Origin: Fistulifera solaris
Lineage: Eukaryota; Bacillariophyta; Bacillariophyceae; Naviculales; Stauroneidaceae
Assembly (NCBI GenBank): GCA_030295235.1
Contig: AP026164.1
Location: 1,054,001 to 1,118,000 of the forward strand
Direction of reading: 5' to 3'
Length of the DNA stretch: 64,000 bases
Made by a program: the position numbers and the translations under genes
Shown: piece by piece, positions 12,039-31,400 of the stretch
Numbering within the stretch: the first letter of the stretch is position 1
How the letters are laid out: each line of letters begins with the position of its first letter
The notes under the pieces: generated by a model
Databases searched by the model: none
Seen by the model: only the letters and a program-made list of their open reading frames with translations
Told to the model about the DNA's origin: nothing

Positions 12039-13179
12039 TTACTTTTCTTTCCTATGTACAATTCCGCCACCGATGGTATACTTTCCGTATTCCTTCCGAG
12101 GGTCGTAAACTTCCCAGCGGCCTGTGTTCCGGATAGACTTATATGAAAAAGGTATGTTGATTCGCAATCGCACCTCCAAGTCGACTTTACTTACTAGCTG
12201 GAAAGATATGTTTATTGCGTTCATACCAACGCCGCTCGGCAACTTTACCCGGGTGACTCTCATCTTTTTCAACTCTTGAATCAATTGCACCGATTCGAAC
12301 ATCATCGTGAACGTCAAAATGGAATAGCGGCCCCGACTTGCCCCGTGCTTTGGTTGCGATCAGATCGTAGAAGGTCATATCCTGAGGAATAATCAAATCT
12401 TCTTTGACGTAGATCAACGCGTCCGCCGAGATGTTGGCCAGCTCCTTAAACTCTTTGGCAAGATCTAGTCGTACTTGCTCTAAAAAGTCCCCAATCGTAT
12501 CGCCCTTTTTACACACGACGTTTCGACGATGGCCGGATCCGTCCCAATAACTATAAATAATTTCCAATTGTTGTTGCTTCATAGCCTCTTGCTTTTCTTT
12601 CCACTCTTGCTCCAAACGTTTCTTTTCCTTCTCAGCTTCTTCTTCGCGGTGCTTGTCAGGTAAGAAAGATGTGTCGACGGACGGATCTTTCTTGACGAGC
12701 CTTGTCGGCGGCTCGGCATTGTCGTCACAGTTCTTATCATCATCATCATCATCATCATCATCGTCATCAAACTCCTGTCCGAACGACAGCGTAGATAACA
12801 TCTTTTTCTTTAAGTTCTTCTTTTTCTTTTGCTCTTTCTTCGTTTTCTTCTCGCGTAATTTCCGCTCCTCCTCCGTTTCCGTGACTAACTCCTTCTCGAC
12901 GGGTTGATTGCGTTTCTCTTCGATGGCCTTGAATTCTTCCGCCGAAAGCAAACCAATCGTTTCTACCGCCGTATCTTTTGTCGTCCCTCCCGCAAACTTG
13001 GCATCCAAAAGAGCGGGGCCTCTCTGAGAATTACTAATTTGTTGTTTCCGGGCCAGAAAAGCTTCTTGATCGAGCTGCCGCTTGCGTTCGAATTGGGCGG
13101 CCCGACTTCCGGCGATATTACCTTCGACGGTACGGATCCCTGCATCTGGGCGTTTGAAATTGGCTTGGAAGTCTCCCAT
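12039..13179 (-). CDS. XAP5: XAP5/FAM50 protein, complete copy 1
   Basis: Two exons, 13179-12195 and 12121-12039, intron 12194-12122 (GTAAGT/CACAG), 355 residues. The N-terminus ([20 protein letters not shown]), a Lys/Glu-rich middle, an Asp tract of eleven, and the conserved C-terminal XAP5 domain ([40 protein letters not shown] across the splice) match the eukaryotic XAP5/FAM50 family, nuclear proteins linked to splicing and, in plants, light and circadian responses (XCT). This is the only copy that keeps the last exon (ending [15 protein letters not shown]). Its start faces the ADH-like gene across the minisatellite, so the two genes share an upstream region. Confidence 0.92.
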
Positions 13180-13356
13180 GTGCCTTTGTTGATGTTGAAG
13201 ATAGGCAAAATTTGGGAGTCAAGAAAATAGTTTGACACGATTTGTTCCCTTGTCGCCAGTGCAAGAATAAAAAGACAACCACTCCATGCTGGTGGACCTG
13301 GCAGACGCCGAAAGCCGTCTTTCTCAATAAATTTTCGCGTTTCGTCGTTCGCACAA

Positions 13357-14280
13357 ACACCACACCCCCATATTTTCTGGGTACGTGAAAACACCACACG
13401 CCCAAATTTTCTGGGTACGTGAAAACATTACATTCCCATATTTTCTGGGTACGTGAAAACACCACACGCCCAAATTTTCTGGGTACGTGAAAGCACCACA
13501 CACCCATATTTTCTGGGTACGTGAAAACACCACACGCCGAAATTTTCTGGGTACGTAAAACATTACATTCCCATATTTTCGGGGTACGTGAAAACACCAC
13601 ACCCCATATTTTCCGGGTACGTAAAACTACCACACCCCCATATTTTCCGGGTACGTGAAAACCACACCCCATATTTTCCGGGTACGTGAAAACACCAATC
13701 GCCCATATTTTCTGGGTACGTGAAAACACCACACGCCCAAATTTTCTGGGTACGGGAAAACACCACGCACCCATATTTTCTGGGTACGTGAAAACACCAC
13801 ACGCCCAAATTTTCTGGGTACGTGAAAGCACCACACACCCATATTTTCTGGGTACGTGAAAACACCACACGCCGAAATTTTCTGGGTACGTAAAACATTA
13901 CATTCCCATATTTTCGGGGTACGTGAAAACACCACACCCCCATATTTTCCGGGTACGTAAAACTACCACACCCCCATATTTTCCGGGTACGTGAAAAACC
14001 ACACCCCCATATTTTCCGGGTACGTGAAAACACCAATCGCCCATATTTTCTGGGTACGTGAAAACACCACACGCCCAAATTTTCTGGGTACGGGAAAACA
14101 CCACGCACCCATATTTTCTGGGTACGTGAAAACACCACACCCCATATTTTCCGGGTACGTGAAAAACCACACGCCCATATTTTCCGGGTACGTGAAAACA
14201 CCAATCGCCCATATTTTCTGGGTACGTGAAAACACCACACTCTCAAATTTTCTGGGTACGTGAAATCACCACACGCCCAT
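13357..14280. repeat. 34-bp minisatellite array 1
   Basis: About 27 units of a 34-bp repeat, consensus containing CCATATTTTCTGGGTACGTG followed by AAAACACCACACGC; unit length drifts between 32 and 34. Because 34 is one more than a multiple of three and the unit has no stop on minus, all three minus frames stay open, giving rotating peptides of the FTYPENMG / FHVPRKYG / FSRTQKIW type; these are not genes. A higher-order period of about 338 bp (ten units) is visible from the variant carrying ATTACATTCCC (13565 and 13902). It lies between the XAP5 and ADH-like starts. Confidence 0.95.
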
Positions 14281-14339
14281 ACCAATAAAAGATATGCGGT
14301 GACGGCCGCCTGTTGTGAGTTGTGATAGGCGGAAAAGTT

Positions 14340-14545
14340 TACTGAATACTAGTAAATCCCCAGATTTTCTGGGGAGGTGGCAAAAGCAGACAACCAGATT
14401 TTTTGGGCACTTCTTAACACCACATCCCCATATTTTCTGGTTACGTGAAAACACCAGATTCCCAGGCTTTCTGGAGACACGTAAAGAACCACACCCCCAG
14501 ATATTCTGGGGGATTGACAGTCCCAGATTTTCTGGGGACGTGACA
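14340..14545. repeat. degenerate minisatellite tail with hairpin units, array 1
   Basis: Five or six diverged units related to the main array. Several are near-perfect hairpins: CCCCAGATTTTCTGGGG (14357-14373), CCCCAGATATTCTGGGG (14497-14513) and CCCAGATTTTCTGGGG (14522-14537). The same block recurs in units 2 and 3 (17654-17859; 20976-21181). Confidence 0.85.
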
Positions 14546-14678
14546 CGTGCGAATACACAGTAGCAAGTTATTGCCGTGATGGCGGATACCGGTAGATGAT
14601 GAATGATGATTGATGATTGATGATCAAGATAAATAAAAGAAAGTCGCTCTTATTAATATCCTTTCCATCAATCTGTAC

Positions 14679-15521
14679 ATGAATATTCTTCACGGAAGAA
14701 AAGCATTGCAAAACTTTCTGCAATCACAAAAAGCCCACTTCGGAGCAGCTCCAATTTTAATAGTTGAAAGCAAGCCACTCAATGGAGTCGAGAACAAGCA
14801 AGTCGATGAAGTCTGTCGATGGACTCGTTTCGTCTTGCAGCAGCAACTGGGATTCCGTACGGTAGTTTATCATTCACAACACTTGTTTCCAACCTTGTCG
14901 GATCAGCAACAAGCCTTCGAAATGGCATCGCGTGTGGGTGCATCGACAGTCGCGGCGGTCGGTTCCGGGAGTGCGGTGGATCTAGGGAAAAGCATGTCGT
15001 GGGCGGAAGATCGGATATTGATGCCCGCGACACCCACTGCGATTCTGGCGGCCGGATCATCTCATTCGCTCATTTATGATTTGGCGGAAGATACGCTTGT
15101 ACCAATAGAACAAAAGAGAGGAGGAACGATTGCTTTGATGCATTCCAAGACAGATCAAGTGCAGGAGGCGCTGTATGCGTGTCTGGCGATCGCGATTGAC
15201 AACTTCGTTCAGGGAACCAGCAGAGATTCTACTTTTGCAGATGATGTGCTGAGGATGATCAAGGAAAAGACATCGAAGGTGGAAGATGCGGAGGATTTGC
15301 TTATTCGAAGTGGTCAATCATTACGTTACGGTCTAGACGAAAACAATCGCTCCATCCCGTTAGCGATTGTTTCCAGTCTGTCACAAACGAGCTATCAAGC
15401 TATTCTGCTATGGGTGTCATGGCCAGTTTAGTTCCATCTTTGGTAAACGTACTTCCAGACAAGTACTCCTTCGACTTTGACAAGGAATTGCTAGACGCAG
15501 CTCCTCGAGCAATCACATCGT
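14679..15521 (+). pseudogene. iron-ADH-like gene, copy 1, 3'-truncated by the duplication
   Basis: This copy has the only intact N-terminal frame (MNILHGRKALQNFLQSQKAH). It shows the dinucleotide-binding motif VAAVGSGSAVDLGKS and the MPATPTAILAAGSS block of the iron-containing alcohol dehydrogenase/dehydroquinate-synthase-like fold. The frame is lost by one missing T at about 15378-15380 (GTCTGTC versus GTCTTGTC in copies 2 and 3), and the gene then runs into antisense XAP5 sequence at 15523. It lacks the natural C-terminus present in copy 3. Expression of a useful product is unlikely. Confidence 0.8.
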
Positions 15522-15522
15522 T

Positions 15523-16492
15523 AAGATATGTTTATTGCGTTCATACCAACGCCGCTCGGCAACTTTACCCGGGTGACTCTCATCTTTTTCAACTCTTGAA
15601 TCAATTGCACCGATTCGAACATCATCGTGAACGTCAAAATGGAATAGCGGCCCCGACTTGCCCCGTGCTTTGGTTGCGATCAGATCGTAGAAGGTCATAT
15701 CCTGAGGAATAATCAAATCTTCTTTGACGTAGATCAACGCGTCCGCCGAGATGTTGGCCAGCTCCTTAAACTCTTTGGCAAGATCTAGTCGTACTTGCTC
15801 TAAAAAGTCCCCAATCGTATCGCCCTTTTTACACACGACGTTTCGACGATGGCCGGATCCGTCCCAATAACTATAAATAATTTCCAATTGTTGTTGCTTC
15901 ATAGCCTCTTGCTTTTCTTTCCACTCTTGCTCCAAACGTTTCTTTTCCTTCTCAGCTTCTTCTTCGCGGTGCTTGTCAGGTAAGAAAGATGTGTCGACGG
16001 ACGGATCTTTCTTGACGAGCCTTGTCGGCGGCTCGGCATTGTCGTCACAGTTCTTATCATCATCATCATCATCATCGTCATCAAACTCCTGTCCGAACGA
16101 CAGCGTAGATAACATCTTTTTCTTTAAGTTCTTCTTTTTCTTTTGCTCTTTCTTCGTTTTCTTCTCGCGTAATTCCGCTCCTCCTCCGTTTCCGTGACTA
16201 ACTCCTTCTCGACGGGTTGATTGCGTTTCTCTTCGATGGCCTTGAATTCTTCCGCCGAAAGCAAACCAATCGTTTCTACCGCCGTATCTTTTGTCGTCCC
16301 TCCCGCAAACTTGGCATCCAAAAGAGCGGGGCCTCTCTGAGAATTACTAATTTGTTGTTTCCGGGCCAGAAAAGCTTCTTGATCGAGCTGCCGCTTGCGT
16401 TCGAATTGGGCGGCCCGACTTCCGGCGATATTACCTTCGACGGTACGGATCCCTGCATCTGGGCGTTTGAAATTGGCTTGGAAGTCTCCCAT
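15523..16492 (-). pseudogene. XAP5: XAP5/FAM50 copy 2, 3'-truncated
   Basis: Near-identical to copy 1 from the ATG at 16492 but cut three codons before the exon end: the last residues are replaced by ILTM from the junction, and the second exon with WEVYDP is absent. The Asp tract has nine residues instead of eleven. One T is missing at about 16171 (AATTCC versus AATTTCC), which breaks the frame in the Lys/Glu-rich middle. Probably non-functional, as the conserved C-terminus is lost. Confidence 0.85.
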
Positions 16493-16669
16493 GTGCCTTT
16501 GTTGATGTTGAAGATAGGCAAAATTTGGGAGTCAAGAAAATAGTTTGACACGATTTGTTCCCTTGTCGCCAGTGCAAGAATAAAAGACAACCACTCCATG
16601 CTGGTGGACCTGGCAGACGCCGAAAGCCGTCTTTCTCAATAAATTTTCGCGTTTCGTCGTTCGCACAAA

Positions 16670-17594
16670 CACCACACCCCCATATTTTCTGGGTACGTGA
16701 AAACACCACACGCCCAAATTTTCTGGGTACGTGAAAACATTACATTCCCATATTTTCTGGGTACGTGAAAACACCACACGCCCAAATTTTCTGGGTACGT
16801 GAAAGCACCACACACCCATATTTTCTGGGTACGTGAAAACACCACACGCCGAAATTTTCTGGGTACGTAAAACATTACATTCCCATATTTTCGGGGTACG
16901 TGAAAACACCACACCCCCATATTTTCCGGGTACGTAAAACTACCACACCCCCATATTTTCCGGGTACGTGAAAACCACACCCCATATTTTCCGGGTACGT
17001 GAAAACACCAATCGCCCATATTTTCTGGGTACGTGAAAACACCACACGCCCAAATTTTCTGGGTACGGGAAAACACCACGCACCCATATTTTCTGGGTAC
17101 GTGAAAACACCACACGCCCAAATTTTCTGGGTACGTGAAAGCACCACACACCCATATTTTCTGGGTACGTGAAAACACCACACGCCGAAATTTTCTGGGT
17201 ACGTAAAACATTACATTCCCATATTTTCGGGGTACGTGAAAACACCACACCCCCATATTTTCCGGGTACGTAAAACTACCACACCCCCATATTTTCCGGG
17301 TACGTGAAAAACCACACCCCCATATTTTCCGGGTACGTGAAAACACCAATCGCCCATATTTTCTGGGTACGTGAAAACACCACACGCCCAAATTTTCTGG
17401 GTACGGGAAAACACCACGCACCCATATTTTCTGGGTACGTGAAAACACCACACCCCCATATTTTCCGGGTACGTGAAAAACCACACGCCCATATTTTCCG
17501 GGTACGTGAAAACACCAATCGCCCATATTTTCTGGGTACGTGAAAACACCACACTCTCAAATTTTCTGGGTACGTGAAATCACCACACGCCCAT
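16670..17594. repeat. 34-bp minisatellite array 2
   Basis: Copy of array 1 with the same order of variant units and only small length changes (for example an extra C in the unit near 17453). Followed by the same degenerate hairpin tail to about 17859. Confidence 0.95.
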
Positions 17595-17992
17595 ACCAAT
17601 AAAAGATATGCGGTGACGGCCGCCTGTTGTGAGTTGTGATAGGCGGAAAAGTTTACTGAATACTAGTAAATCCCCAGATTTTCTGGGGAGGTGGCAAAAG
17701 CAGACAACCAGATTTTTTGGGCACTTCTTAACACCACATCCCCATATTTTCTGGTTACGTGAAAACACCAGATTCCCAGGCTTTCTGGAGACACGTAAAG
17801 AACCACACCCCCAGATATTCTGGGGGATTGACAGTCCCAGATTTTCTGGGGACGTGACACGTGCGAATACACAGTAGCAAGTTATTGCCGTGATGGCGGA
17901 TACCGGTAGATGATGAATGATGATTGATGATTGATGATCAAGATAAATAAAAGAAAGTCGCTCTTATTAATATCCTTTCCATCAATCTGTAC

Positions 17993-19026
17993 ATGAATAT
18001 TCTTCACGGAAGAAAAGCATTGCAAAACTTTCTGCAATCACAAAAGCCCACTTCGGAGCAGCTCCAATTTTAATAGTTGAAAGCAAGCCACTCAATGGAG
18101 TCGAGAACAAGCAAGTCGATGAAGTCTGTCGATGGACTCGTTTCGTCTTGCAGCAGCAACTGGGATTCCGTACGGTAGTTTATCATTCACAACACTTGTT
18201 TCCAACCTTGTCGGATCAGCAACAAGCCTTCGAAATGGCATCGCGTGTGGGTGCATCGACAGTCGCGGCGGTCGGTTCCGGGAGTGCGATGGATCTAGGG
18301 AAAAGCATGTCGTGGGCGGAAGATCGGATATTGATGCCCGCGACACCCACTGCGATTCTGGCGGCCGGATCATCTCATTCGCTCATTTATGATTTGGCGG
18401 AAGATACGCTTGTACCAATAGAACAAAAGAGAGGAGGAACGATTGCTTTGATGCATTCCAAGACAGATCAAGTGCAGGAGGCGCTGTATGCGTGTCTGGC
18501 GATCGCGATTGACAACTTCGTTCAGGGAACCAGCAGAGATTCTACTTTTGCAGATGATGTGCTGAGGATGATCAAGGAAAAGACATCGAAGGTGGAAGAT
18601 GCGGAGGATTTGCTTATTCGAAGTGGTCAATCATTACGTTACGGTCTAGACGAAAACAATCGCTCCATCCCGTTAGCGATTGTTTCCAGTCTTGTCACAA
18701 ACGAGCTATCAAGCTATTCTGCTATGGGTGTCATGGCCAGTTTAGTTCCATCTTTGGTAAACGTACTTCCAGACAAGTACTCCTTCGACTTTGACAAGGA
18801 ATTGCTAGACGCAGCTCCTCGAGCAATCACATCGTTAAGATATGTTTATTGCGTTCATACCAACGCCGCTCGGCAACTTTACCCGGGTGACTCTCATCTT
18901 TTTCAACTCTTGAATCAATTGCACCGATTCGAACATCATCGTGAACGTCAAAATGGAATAGCGGCCCCGACTTGCCCCGTGCTTTGGTTGCGATCAGATC
19001 GTAGAAGGTCATATCCTGAGGAATAA
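17993..19026 (+). pseudogene. iron-ADH-like copy 2 fused to antisense XAP5
   Basis: The ATG at 17993 reads only ~24 codons because one A is missing in the run before GCCCAC (four A instead of five at about 18045). A long frame is open from a TTG at 18148 through the whole enzyme body, crosses the duplication junction at 18835-18837 and continues 63 codons in sequence antisense to XAP5 exon 1 before a stop at 19026. The chimeric tail ([15 protein letters not shown]...) has no homology expected for either family. Position 102-equivalent is Met (SGSAMDLG) rather than Val as in copy 1. Confidence 0.8.
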
Positions 19027-19814
19027 TCAAATCTTCTTTGACGTAGATCAACGCGTCCGCCGAGATGTTGGCCAGCTCCTTAAACTCTTTGGCAAGATCT
19101 AGTCGTACTTGCTCTAAAAAAGTCCCCAATCGTATCGCCCTTTTTACACACGACGTTTCGACGATGGCCGGATCCGTCCCAATAACTATAAATAATTTCC
19201 AATTGTTGTTGCTTCATAGCCTCTTGCTTTTCTTTCCACTCTTGCTCCAAACGTTTCTTTTCCTTCTCAGCTTCTTCTTCGCGGTGCTTGTCAGGTAAGA
19301 AAGATGTGTCGACGGACGGATCTTTCTTGACGAGCCTTGTCGGCGGCTCGGCATTGTCGTCACAGTTCTTATCATCATCATCATCATCATCATCATCGTC
19401 ATCAAACTCCTGTCCGAACGACAGCGTAGATAACATCTTTTTCTTTAAGTTCTTCTTTTTCTTTTGCTCTTTCTTCGTTTTCTTCTCGCGTAATTTCCGC
19501 TCCTCCTCCGTTTCCGTGACTAACTCCTTCTCGACGGGTTGATTGCGTTTCTCTTCGATGGCCTTGAATTCTTCCGCCGAAAGCAAACCAATCGTTTCTA
19601 CCGCCGTATCTTTTGTCGTCCCTCCCGCAAACTTGGCATCCAAAAGAGCGGGGCCTCTCTGAGAATTACTAATTTGTTGTTTCCGGGCCAGAAAAGCTTC
19701 TTGATCGAGCTGCCGCTTGCGTTCGAATTGGGCGGCCCGACTTCCGGCGATATTACCTTCGACGGTACGGATCCCTGCATCTGGGCGTTTGAAATTGGCT
19801 TGGAAGTCTCCCAT
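18837..19814 (-). pseudogene. XAP5: XAP5/FAM50 copy 3, 3'-truncated
   Basis: Open from the ATG at 19814 through most of the protein with an Asp tract of eleven, but an extra A in the run at about 19115-19120 (six instead of five) shifts the frame in the C-terminal domain, and the junction removes the end of exon 1 and all of exon 2. Like copy 2 it lacks the WEVYDP end, so it is probably not a working gene. Confidence 0.85.
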
Positions 19815-19985
19815 GTGCCTTTGTTGATGTTGAAGATAGGCAAAATTTGGGAGTCAAGAAAATAGTTTGACACGATTTGTTCCCTTGTCGCCAGTGCAAG
19901 AATAAAAGACAACCACTCCATGCTGGTGGACCTGGCAGACGCCGAAAGCCGTCTTTCTCAATAAATTTTCGCGTTTCGTCGTTCG

Positions 19986-20917
19986 CACAAACACCACACC
20001 CCCATATTTTCTGGGTACGTGAAAACACCACACGCCCAAATTTTCTGGGTACGTGAAAACATTACATTCCCATATTTTCTGGGTACGTGAAAACACCACA
20101 CGCCCAAATTTTCTGGGTACGTGAAAGCACCACACACCCATATTTTCTGGGTACGTGAAAACACCACACGCCGAAATTTTCTGGGTACGTAAAACATTAC
20201 ATTCCCATATTTTCGGGGTACGTGAAAACACCACACCCCCATATTTTCCGGGTACGTAAAACTACCACACCCCCATATTTTCCGGGTACGTGAAAAACCA
20301 CACCCCCATATTTTCCGGGTACGTGAAAACACCAATCGCCCATATTTTCTGGGTACGTGAAAACACCACACGCCCAAATTTTCTGGGTACGGGAAAACAC
20401 CACGCACCCATATTTTCTGGGTACGTGAAAACACCACACCCCCATATTTTCCGGGTACGTGAAAAACCACACGCCCATATTTTCTGGGTACGTGAAAACA
20501 CCACACGCCGAAATTTTCTGGGTACGTAAAACATTACATTCCCATATTTTCGGGGTACGTGAAAACACCACACCCCCATATTTTCCGGGTACGTAAAACT
20601 ACCACACCCCCATATTTTCCGGGTACGTGAAAAACCACACCCCCATATTTTCCGGGTACGTGAAAACACCAATCGCCCATATTTTCTGGGTACGTGAAAA
20701 CACCACACGCCCAAATTTTCTGGGTACGGGAAAACACCACGCACCCATATTTTCTGGGTACGTGAAAACACCACACCCCCATATTTTCCGGGTACGTGAA
20801 AACCACACGCCCATATTTTCCGGGTACGTGAAAACACCAATCGCCCATATTTTCTGGGTACGTGAAAACACCACACTCTCAAATTTTCTGGGTACGTGAA
20901 ATCACCACACGCCCATA
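19986..20917. repeat. 34-bp minisatellite array 3
   Basis: Third copy of the array. It differs from arrays 1 and 2 in unit order around 20410-20560, where a block carrying ATTACATTCCC follows the ACGCCCATATTTTCTGG unit, indicating unequal exchange or gene conversion inside the array. Confidence 0.93.
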
Positions 20918-21314
20918 CCAATAAAAGATATGCGGTGACGGCCGCCTGTTGTGAGTTGTGATAGGCGGAAAAGTTTACTGAATACTAGTAAATCCCCAGA
21001 TTTTCTGGGGAGGTGGCAAAAGCAGACAACCAGATTTTTTGGGCACTTCTTAACACCACATCCCCATATTTTCTGGTTACGTGAAAACACCAGATTCCCA
21101 GGCTTTCTGGAGACACGTAAAGAACCACACCCCCAGATATTCTGGGGGATTGACAGTCCCAGATTTTCTGGGGACGTGACACGTGCGAATACACAGTAGC
21201 AAGTTATTGCCGTGATGGCGGATACCGGTAGATGATGAATGATGATTGATGATTGATGATCAAGATAAATAAAAGAAAGTCGCTCTTATTAATATCCTTT
21301 CCATCAATCTGTAC

Positions 21315-22273
21315 ATGAATATTCTTCACGGAAGAAAAGCATTGCAAAACTTTCTGCAATCACAAAAGCCCACTTCGGAGCAGCTCCAATTTTAATAGTT
21401 GAAAGCAAGCCACTCAATGGAGTCGAGAACAAGCAAGTCGATGAAGTCTGTCGATGGACTCGTTTCGTCTTGCAGCAGCAACTGGGATTCCGTACGGTAG
21501 TTTATCATTCACAACACTTGTTTCCAACCTTGTCGGATCAGCAACAAGCCTTCGAAATGGCATCGCGTGTGGGTGCATCGACAGTCGCGGCGGTCGGTTC
21601 CGGGAGTGCGATGGATCTAGGGAAAAGCATGTCGTGGGCGGAAGATCGGATATTGATGCCCGCGACACCCACTGCGATTCTGGCGGCCGGATCATCTCAT
21701 TCGCTCATTTATGATTTGGCGGAAGATACGCTTGTACCAATAGAACAAAAGAGAGGAGGAACGATTGCTTTGATGCATTCCAAGACAGATCAAGTGCAGG
21801 AGGCGCTGTATGCGTGTCTGGCGATCGCGATTGACAACTTCGTTCAGGGAACCAGCAGAGATTCTACTTTTGCAGATGATGTGCTGAGGATGATCAAGGA
21901 AAAGACATCGAAGGTGGAAGATGCGGAGGATTTGCTTATTCGAAGTGGTCAATCATTACGTTACGGTCTAGACGAAAACAATCGCTCCATCCCGTTAGCG
22001 ATTGTTTCCAGTCTTGTCACAAACGAGCTATCAAGCTATTCTGCTATGGGTGTCATGGCCAGTTTAGTTCCATCTTTGGTAAACGTACTTCCAGACAAGT
22101 ACTCCTTCGACTTTGACAAGGAATTGCTAGACGCAGCTCCTCGAGCAATCACATCGTCTTCAATCGAATCATTATTGGCGCACATTCGTGACAATCAAGG
22201 CGCGACGGGATGCTACGACATTTCTGAGGAAAAACTTCGCAAAGTTCTGCAGTTTCACACGGTCAATTCGTGA
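21315..22273 (+). CDS. iron-ADH-like protein, copy 3 with natural C-terminus (one frame step)
   Basis: About 319 residues if the missing A near 21364 is allowed for; otherwise open from a TTG at 21470. The fold signature of the iron-dependent ADH/glycerol-dehydrogenase family is clear: AVGSGSAMDLGKS for NAD(P) binding, LMPATPTAILAAGSS, then a helical C-domain with ACLAIAIDNFVQG and IPLAIVSSLVTNEL. The usual metal ligands (Asp with His four residues on, and two more His) are not evident: the Asp is followed by NFVQ. It may therefore be a non-iron or non-catalytic member. It is the only copy with the unique end (LRKVLQFHTVNS). Plus strand, divergent from XAP5 across the minisatellite. Confidence 0.65.
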
Positions 22274-28495: not shown

Positions 28496-31400
28496 CTAAG
28501 GGCATGAGCGATCTCCGCAGCAATTACATTCGATGTTACAACCCACACTCAATTCTTCGAGCTTTCCCAAACCAGTGCCGCGCCTGCTGCATAGAGCTGT
28601 GGATACCGCACCACTTAAAAGAGGATTATTCCCTAGTCTTAGTAACTCTGAAATTGTAAATAAGTCAGGCACGAATCGAAGTTATGTTGAATCTTGCCGA
28701 TGCACGTACCCAATATCATTAGATCATCAAACGCAACTGGGATGACTCCAGAAAAGTTATTGCCGTCTAAGCTAAGTTCCATAATGGTTGCATTCAGCCC
28801 GCGGAAATCTTCTGACAGCTCACTCCCAAAATTGGCGTTCGATAAGTGAAGCTCGCTGAGGACGGGGAGACGGAAGAGTTCATTAGGTAGTTCTCCCGAC
28901 ATACTCGTATTTCCTAGGTTCAAAACACGGAGGTTGGTCATTAAGGATATGCTGCTCGGTAAACTGCCTTCGATATCATTACCGGCGAGCTGCAGTTCTT
29001 GTAAGTTACCATTGTAAATCTCCGTGGGAATCGAGCCAGAAAACTTGTTATTCTGCAAATTCAGGATCTCTGCCACAAACCAAACTGTCAGAGCAAATGG
29101 CGACGGGCGAGATTATCAAGAGCTCAGTGACCTTACCTAATTTCGGAGCAAGCCCCATTTCAGACGGAATTTGACCAGACAGTCCGTTTCCTTCAAGCAG
29201 AAGCGTTGTTAAGTTGTCGAGTTTGGCCAAGGAAGTAGGTAAGCTGCCTTTGATGCCATTACGAGCCACGTTAAATAATGCTAGATTCGGATGGGCATCG
29301 ACAGCGAGTGCAGAGATGTCACCCGTAAAAGAGTTACCTTCCAAATACAAGCTTTCAAGTTTCGCGAGAGTTGAAAACACAGACAAAATGCCGCTGGTTT
29401 TACGATTCCTTGGTAAATGAAACAACTTGAGATTAGATAATTTCCCGATTTCGGCTGGCAAACGAGAGTTTAGCACAAAAACTTCATCAGGACCGAAAAA
29501 CCCTGCTCAAACTCTCTTTCAGCTTGTTCTGTTTAACACGAAAGAATGAGATTGACAGTTAAAATCAGACACAAAAAACTTCATTTTCACCACATACCGA
29601 AATTCAATTTCTCGATTATACCGTTGTCATCGCATCCAACGGCCGCCCAGTCACATTCGTCTGTTGTCGAAAGCCATGATTGTTCACTAGCATAACAAGT
29701 TTTTTGGAGATTGCACTGATTCCAAGAGTCACCATTCATAGCGAAGTAAAACACAGCAAGAATGTACCGCTGAAGGAGTTTGGCTTCATTATCCTGCAGA
29801 TTATCGTAGTCATCCGTTGAAGCTATCCACTTCGCAGCTTTGTTCTGCACAGATTCACGATTTCGTAGTACTGAAATATCTGTGATGGCAGATAAACGCT
29901 CAAGCAGCAAAGGAAAAGACGCGCTGGTGGGTGCAGCAGAAGGAGCAGGAGTTGGAGGGTCGGTTGCAATGGTCTCTTCCTCGCTGTTGTTTGAAAGGAG
30001 GACCGCGGGAACGACAGCAGCTATCACAACTAACACTAAAAGGGCCGCGCCATAACATACGAGCCTTTTGATGCTTCGACGTTCCCACTCTGCGTTAACT
30101 TCATCTTTTCCTGAAATAACGGCTACACCAGTTGCATCAACGACGGTCTCAGCGAAAAAAGGTACACCTGGGTTGGCAAGTGCCGGCTGTTCTGGGTCAG
30201 GGTCATTTCTTGCAGAATTCGGTCCCGAAATGTCTTCCGAGATAGGTGAAGGTGGCACGTCAACTCCCAGATGATCGGGCTCGGAAGCATAATCCCCGTA
30301 ACTGAATTGGGGTTTCCAGTCGTTTTCTGCATCTATGGCTTGAAAGTCAAGAGACGGTACTGTTCGATCTGTGCTTGCCATCTCAACAGACTGAGTCTTG
30401 CTCAAGAGATCTGTAATCGTTGACGAAGGACCCTGAAACTGCATACCCTTACTCGACGCCAAGCCTTGAGCATTTCCTTGTTCATAGTGCAAACCTTGAC
30501 GTTGTGGTGCATGTTTACGAACTAAATCTTGCTCGAGCTGTTGCAAAGAGGTCGACATACCGACCGCGACAGCACCAGGTTTTGCTGCAACGGCTCCTCC
30601 CGCCTGTCGCTTTGTTGCGATGCCTTGCTCCAATGCTTGCAAAGTGTTTCGACCACCAGCTCCAGCCTGCTTCGCGTGAATGTCACGTTCTAGCTGTTCC
30701 AGCGCATTGGTACCGATCGCGACAGCTCCGGGCGTTGCTGCAGCGCTTGCACCCACTTGTCGCTTAGTAGCAATATCTTGTTCTAGTGATTGTAAGTTGT
30801 TTCGCCCGACACTCGCAGCTTGCTTTACGTGTAAGTCACGTTCTAGCTGCTCCAATGAGGTTGAAGGGCTGACCGCGACGGCCCCGGGTTTGGCTGCAAC
30901 ATTTCCACCCGCCTGTCGCTTGGTCGCAATGTCTTGCTCTAACGCTTGCAAGGTGCTGTGCCCAACAGACGCGGCTTGCTTTACGTTCAAATCACGTTCT
31001 AGCTGTTCCAACGAAGAAGAAGCACTAACTGCGACGGCTCCGGGCGTAGTAGCAGAGTTTGCCCCCGCTTGCCGCTTTGTAGCAAGATCTTGCTCCAGCG
31101 CCTGCAAGGAGTTTCGCCCAGCACTGCCTGCCTGCTTGGCGTTTATGTCACGCTCTAGCTGTTCCAAAGAAGACGACGCGCTAACCGAGACGGCCCCCGG
31201 TAACGTAGCACGACTGGAAACCTGCAGCTTTGCATTTGAAGTGCGGTCGGAACCGCCCACACTGACAGCACCGGGCATGGTAGCCGCCGCCGTCGGTCGA
31301 TTCTGTTGTTTCGAAACTATATCTTGCTCCAACTTCTGGACCTTTTCAAGTTGCGTGCCCGCAGTGGTAGTCTCTCCTTCGTTGGCAGACTGACCTTGAG

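Follow-up and report, generated by a model that had tools for sequence, protein, structure and literature searches.

The window analyzed here is a stretch of 64,000 nucleotides from contig C4 of Fistulifera solaris (C4:1054001-1118000; the assembly holds 61 contigs for a genome of 51.7 Mb). Its positions 12203-22157 carry repeated parts of two divergent genes, an XAP5/FAM50 gene on the minus strand and a gene resembling iron-type alcohol dehydrogenases (ADH) on the plus strand. Repeat finding and self-BLAST resolved this interval into three head-to-tail direct copies, 99.5% identical to each other, which meet at two one-base junctions:

12203..15521, unit 1 (3319 bp): XAP5 5′ part, intergenic minisatellite and truncated ADH; its left side is continuous with the XAP5 3′ exon
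15522, junction 1/2: a single extra T between an ADH side ending in CATCGT and an XAP5 side starting AAGATATG
15523..18835, unit 2 (3313 bp): XAP5 and ADH both truncated
18836, junction 2/3: a one-base join identical to junction 1/2 (CATCGT, T, AAGATATG)
18837..22157, unit 3 (3321 bp): truncated XAP5, intergenic minisatellite and ADH; its right side is continuous with the ADH 3′ end

A sequence-only reading of the same DNA had placed three units of ~3.3 kb at these positions, and self-comparison returned its coordinates exactly. As that reading had also described, all three units contain the 5′ parts of the two divergent genes with the minisatellite between them, and 1499-1500 bp separate the start codons in each unit. 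The XAP5-side homology starts at 12203 and the ADH-side homology stops at 22157; the XAP5 3′ exon is reached from unit 1 only and the ADH 3′ end from unit 3 only. This distribution of 3′ ends had been proposed as well and holds, but the accompanying description of the gene ends as intact calls for qualification in ADH, which shows an apparent one-base frame break. Aligned over 3325 columns, the units differ in six substitution columns and 12 indel events. Five of the substitutions fall within one ~35-column tract of the unit 3 minisatellite, the sixth being a G at 14976 in unit 1, and 11 of the indels are single-base, the other being a 6-bp difference in an ATC repeat of unit 2. Each unit can be told apart by a marker of its own, namely the G at 14976 (unit 1), the 6-bp difference (unit 2) and the exchange-like tract (unit 3). 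Inspection of both junctions revealed no microhomology at either ADH/XAP5 join, and the 29-base joined sequence occurs at two sites in the genome with up to two mismatches allowed, both of them the junctions in the window. The length and identity of the units exclude a chance origin of the three-unit structure.

The XAP5 copies, located with Pfam PF04921 and by tblastn with the F. solaris FAM50 protein P0010, are as follows:

12042..13179, minus strand: full-length, two-exon XAP5/FAM50 gene, with exon 1 from 13179 to ~12190 and exon 2 within 12042-12140 (putative splice sites)
15523..16492, minus strand: truncated XAP5 of unit 2, ending ...NKHI, LTM, stop; a T missing near 16173 breaks the frame
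18837..19814, minus strand: truncated XAP5 of unit 3, ending ...NKHI, LTM, stop; an extra A at 19116 breaks the frame

Exon 1 in unit 1 scores 146.7 bits against PF04921 (cut-off 25; E 9.2e-43), which places it in the family, and the best match of the window XAP5 is the F. solaris protein FAM50, at 93%. The truncated copies in units 2 and 3 have lost ~30 conserved C-terminal residues. The copies of the second gene are:

14679..15521, plus strand: truncated ADH of unit 1, with a T missing near 15379 and the derived G at 14976
17993..18835, plus strand: truncated ADH of unit 2, with a frame break near codon 18; an open frame continues past the junction to 19026
21315..22273, plus strand: full-length iron-ADH-like gene in unit 3 and its right flank; as assembled, its frame is broken by one base in a homopolymer near 21364

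The truncated ADH copies (units 1 and 2) stop after approximately residue 281-282 of 319 and thus lack ~37 C-terminal residues. In unit 2, the open frame across the junction spans 351 codons, of which the last ~62 residues are antisense of XAP5. With this fusion as query, the ADH on C4 is 100% identical to FisN_5Lh475 (P0002) over the 80% of the query that the two share, while the ADH on contig C3 is 100% identical to F. solaris FisN_5Hh475 over its 288 residues. The UniRef label is iron-type ADH, and precomputed annotation assigns PF00465 to P0001 and to several relatives. The C3 ADH itself scores below both relevant Pfam cut-offs (PF00465, 27.8 bits against 31.3; PF13685, 22.2 against 28), and "Fe-ADH-like" is therefore the safe name for this gene. 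The divergent arrangement may be old, since two proteins from one source, related to ADH (P0004, 72%) and to XAP5 (P0011, 89%), each have a longest listed contig of 6504 bp, as could be the case if both genes lay on a single contig.

Fistulifera solaris is described as an allopolyploid (allodiploid) with homoeologous chromosomes in pairs (PMC5935921; PMC13276009), and the homoeologous locus on C3 is collinear with the one on C4 and carries a single unit. The corresponding interval measures 9955 bp on C4 and 2256 bp on C3. When C3 was compared with the window in seven 10-kb pieces, six aligned in order, in blocks of ~70-92% identity with some stretches unaligned; the seventh, lying past the window end, gave no match. 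No further XAP5 or ADH matches beyond the C4 and C3 loci were obtained in the genome search at E 0.001. Because C3 is collinear and single-copy, the gain is most simply assigned to C4, and one unit was probably the ancestral state. Outside the minisatellite (~2.4 kb), the three units differ by one substitution, whereas the comparison of unit 1 with C3 gives 7-10%, with 69 differences in 956 compared bases for the XAP5 side and 87 in 860 for the ADH side. The G at 14976 is derived, since C3 has A at this position and the published P0002 has Met. The contrast between one substitution among units and 7-10% between homoeologues suggests that the triplication is either very young relative to the homoeologue split or homogenized, in agreement with the earlier proposal of a recent or homogenized event.

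Unaligned stretches of ~3.3 kb (L042 2280-5561) and ~2.6 kb (L044 5269-7901) on C3 stand against ~0.5 and ~0.8 kb on C4. A search for a second gene-size tandem duplication in the window (E 1e-15, low-complexity masking) found none. The sole self-matches outside 12-22.4 kb belong to a repeat with a 156-bp period at 30.5-31.2 kb (30562-31201; 4.1 copies, 73% matches), and the C3 homoeologue has one too.

Between the divergent start codons, every unit carries a 34-bp minisatellite and, to the left of it, one end of an element with terminal inverted repeats (TIR):

13355..14281, plus strand: minisatellite of unit 1, 27.5 copies
16667..17595, plus strand: minisatellite of unit 2, 27.5 copies
19989..20917, plus strand: minisatellite of unit 3, 27.5 copies, including the ~35-column tract with five substitutions
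13274..13298, 16586-16610 and 19908-19932, plus strand: left terminal sequence of the TIR element, GACAACCACTCCATGCTGGTGGACC, from a search with the 25-base end

The divergent tract of unit 3 matches 40-base stretches at other positions in the unit 1 array, a pattern that exchange between repeats would produce. The idea that the minisatellite is private to this promoter was rejected. With up to three mismatches, the 34-bp repeat has 349 matches in the genome, of which 205 are forward and 144 reverse; the three units account for 65 and other sites for 284. The repeat is scattered over many contigs, and its short core, CCCA(G/T)ATTTTCTGGG, is palindromic. Copies of the core pattern were present in 19 of 20 sampled array loci, and the terminal sequence GGCAACCACTCCATGC lies beside or near the array in 9 of these 20 as well as in the window (≤3 mismatches). 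The sequences upstream of GGCAACCACTCCATGC appeared unrelated among loci by eye, save for three mutually similar ones (L024, L026, and L032). The 25-base version of the end has 20 genome sites, evenly split between the strands (10 each) and including those of the three units. Inverted pairs of it delimit five elements of ~1.2-1.8 kb in four fetched loci, and these ends are inverted terminal repeats, as in a candidate non-autonomous (MITE-like) DNA transposon. An 8-bp flanking duplication, a possible target-site duplication, accompanies three of the five (L049, where it is near-homopolymer, L051, and the second element of L048), the remaining two being without one. At L048 (C11:544900-547800), two copies of the element lie head to tail, 99.4% identical and 7 bases apart, and the second is flanked on both sides by ATGACCCG. 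One of the five elements contains the 34-bp core pattern (L051, with 13 cores) and the other four lack it. A 34-bp array was seen between inverted ends at three checked loci: L051 (the same place as L023), L038, and L022, the last with an imperfect right end. Some 34-bp arrays, those at these three loci, thus ride in a TIR element.

At the C4 locus itself, the element was found with its left end only, no right end being detected. The intergenic interval on C3 (L009 5566-6002) has no TIR end and a few related 34-bp repeats in the orientation opposite to that on C4 (13182-14660), and the repeat number in this interval is very different between the homoeologues. On these comparisons, the window minisatellite is a passenger from a dispersed repeat family that is partly carried by a TIR element. 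A role of the minisatellite as recombination substrate of the first duplication was considered and rejected, as both breakpoints fall within gene sequence (ADH and XAP5), over 1 kb away from the array.

Single-base differences within the coding regions call for caution. The single-copy XAP5 on C3 shows four coding single-base indels relative to unit 1 and a broken frame, while the published P0010, whose first 157 residues are 100% identical to the C3 copy, has an intact frame; for this reason, the single-base indels of this assembly are untrustworthy. Frame-changing single-base indels affect the ADH of unit 1 and both genes of units 2 and 3, leaving the XAP5 of unit 1 clean. The one-base break near codon 18 of ADH is common to units 2 and 3 and thereby affects the only full-length ADH copy on C4, although the published P0002 (FisN_5Lh475) is in frame. 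We provisionally read these frame breaks as consensus errors. Decay of the truncated copies is accordingly unusable for dating, because the C3 XAP5 and the full-length ADH of unit 3 are broken as well where the published proteins are intact. The apparent errors leave the triplication itself untouched.

We consider it likely that C4 underwent a very recent tandem triplication, by end joining followed by unequal recombination, with truncated by-products and a passenger minisatellite. Head-to-tail repeats at a novel junction, a non-homologous first join, an identical second junction, and a single-copy relative were all found in the assembly. From the junction sequence, we infer a first step in which a break or a replication error would have linked a point in the terminal part of ADH to one close to the XAP5 exon 1 end, with one base added and no microhomology, thereby duplicating the intervening 3.3 kb. 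As the second junction is identical to the first, we infer that unequal recombination between the 3.3-kb direct repeats then added the third copy; exchange may also have preserved the likeness of the units. This two-step account is the simplest, and the event was presumably neutral. Tandem duplications generally leave the outer copies full-length, and the outer units here would by geometry retain one full-length XAP5 and one full-length ADH. The number of full-length genes would thus be unchanged and the divergent promoter region tripled, which is what the sequence-only reading had maintained and what stands in the assembly. As for the four truncated copies, they are probably by-products without function.

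Several observations weigh against this interpretation. The triplication is known here from assembled sequence alone, and the assembly is seemingly not clean, with base-level indel errors of the homopolymer type. The protein database holds one L-subgenome ADH only, P0002, with one member sequence. No full ADH fusion was found there among the 10 proteins matched (maximum coverage 84%; best, P0002, 80%), and none of the proteins listed has a counterpart to the 62 read-through residues at the end of the truncated ADH. Collapse of the repeat in a short-read assembly could account for this, but so could a single-copy locus in the published strain. All this, together with the repetitive array in each unit, would be compatible with an assembly artefact, in which a locus of one or two units was assembled as three. 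We nevertheless regard an artefact as unlikely, as the non-homologous junction with its added base is present twice, in gene sequence and outside the array, every unit has its own markers, and assembly of the C3 homoeologue gave a single unit.

A further route to the same arrangement would be an extrachromosomal circle: after excision, the 3.3-kb segment would have had its ends joined, been amplified, and gone back into its own locus by homology. The product of this route would look alike, with identical junctions and full-length outer ends. We hold this to be improbable, since it takes more steps than local duplication with unequal exchange; the absence of the joined sequence from the rest of the genome also speaks against it, albeit as weak evidence.

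At each junction, ADH and XAP5 have lost their 3′ ends, probably together with the terminators, and the two remnants face each other. Conceivably, the triplication could then act as a naturally arisen trans-acting silencing locus, through read-through antisense RNA to XAP5 and ADH, but we think this highly doubtful. If it were true and the promoters were active, the antisense RNAs would overlap the sense RNAs and could lower the expression of both genes, including the ~90-93% identical homoeologues. An antisense-based knock-down technique is reported for F. solaris (PMC8536745). Least probable of all is selection for extra copies of the divergent promoter or minisatellite or for truncated proteins, which is compatible with the same mutational origin and could draw on the near-identical promoter regions and on the 351-codon frame of unit 2, but recent origin accounts for the identity without it, the truncated XAP5 lack ~30 conserved residues, and several truncated copies are frame-broken, possibly through errors.

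The tandem triplication, probably by end joining and unequal recombination, is ordinary in kind and well resolved, and reveals no new mechanism. Searches of the openly licensed literature, which were not specific to these genes, found no published report of it. Its value lies in the combination of a clean, apparently very young triplication with an unduplicated homoeologue in one assembly, by which the junction can be read directly, as can the probable sequence of events. If confirmed by reads, it would supply a copy-number marker for F. solaris and allow a test of what follows when a divergent promoter is multiplied without its complete genes.

The closest parallel for the silencing idea is rice Lgc1, where a rearrangement reportedly deletes the terminator between tail-to-tail genes and read-through can yield a silencing RNA. 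The two rice genes are said to be alike, to form a hairpin, and to cause a phenotype; in F. solaris, antisense transcription is no more than a possibility. For the minisatellite, a parallel exists in Porphyromonas gingivalis, where a miniature inverted-repeat transposable element (MITE) is reported to contain an internal minisatellite (PMC4596501). The likeness lies in a minisatellite housed by an inverted-repeat element; the F. solaris element is diatom nuclear. The triplication as a whole resembles tandem duplications from a Drosophila yakuba survey, in which chimeric or partial genes arise, gene structures are altered, and regulatory elements are shuffled (PMC5460883). The F. solaris locus differs from those described there in its three copies, in involving a divergent gene pair, and in belonging to an allodiploid diatom whose unduplicated homoeologue is part of the same assembly.

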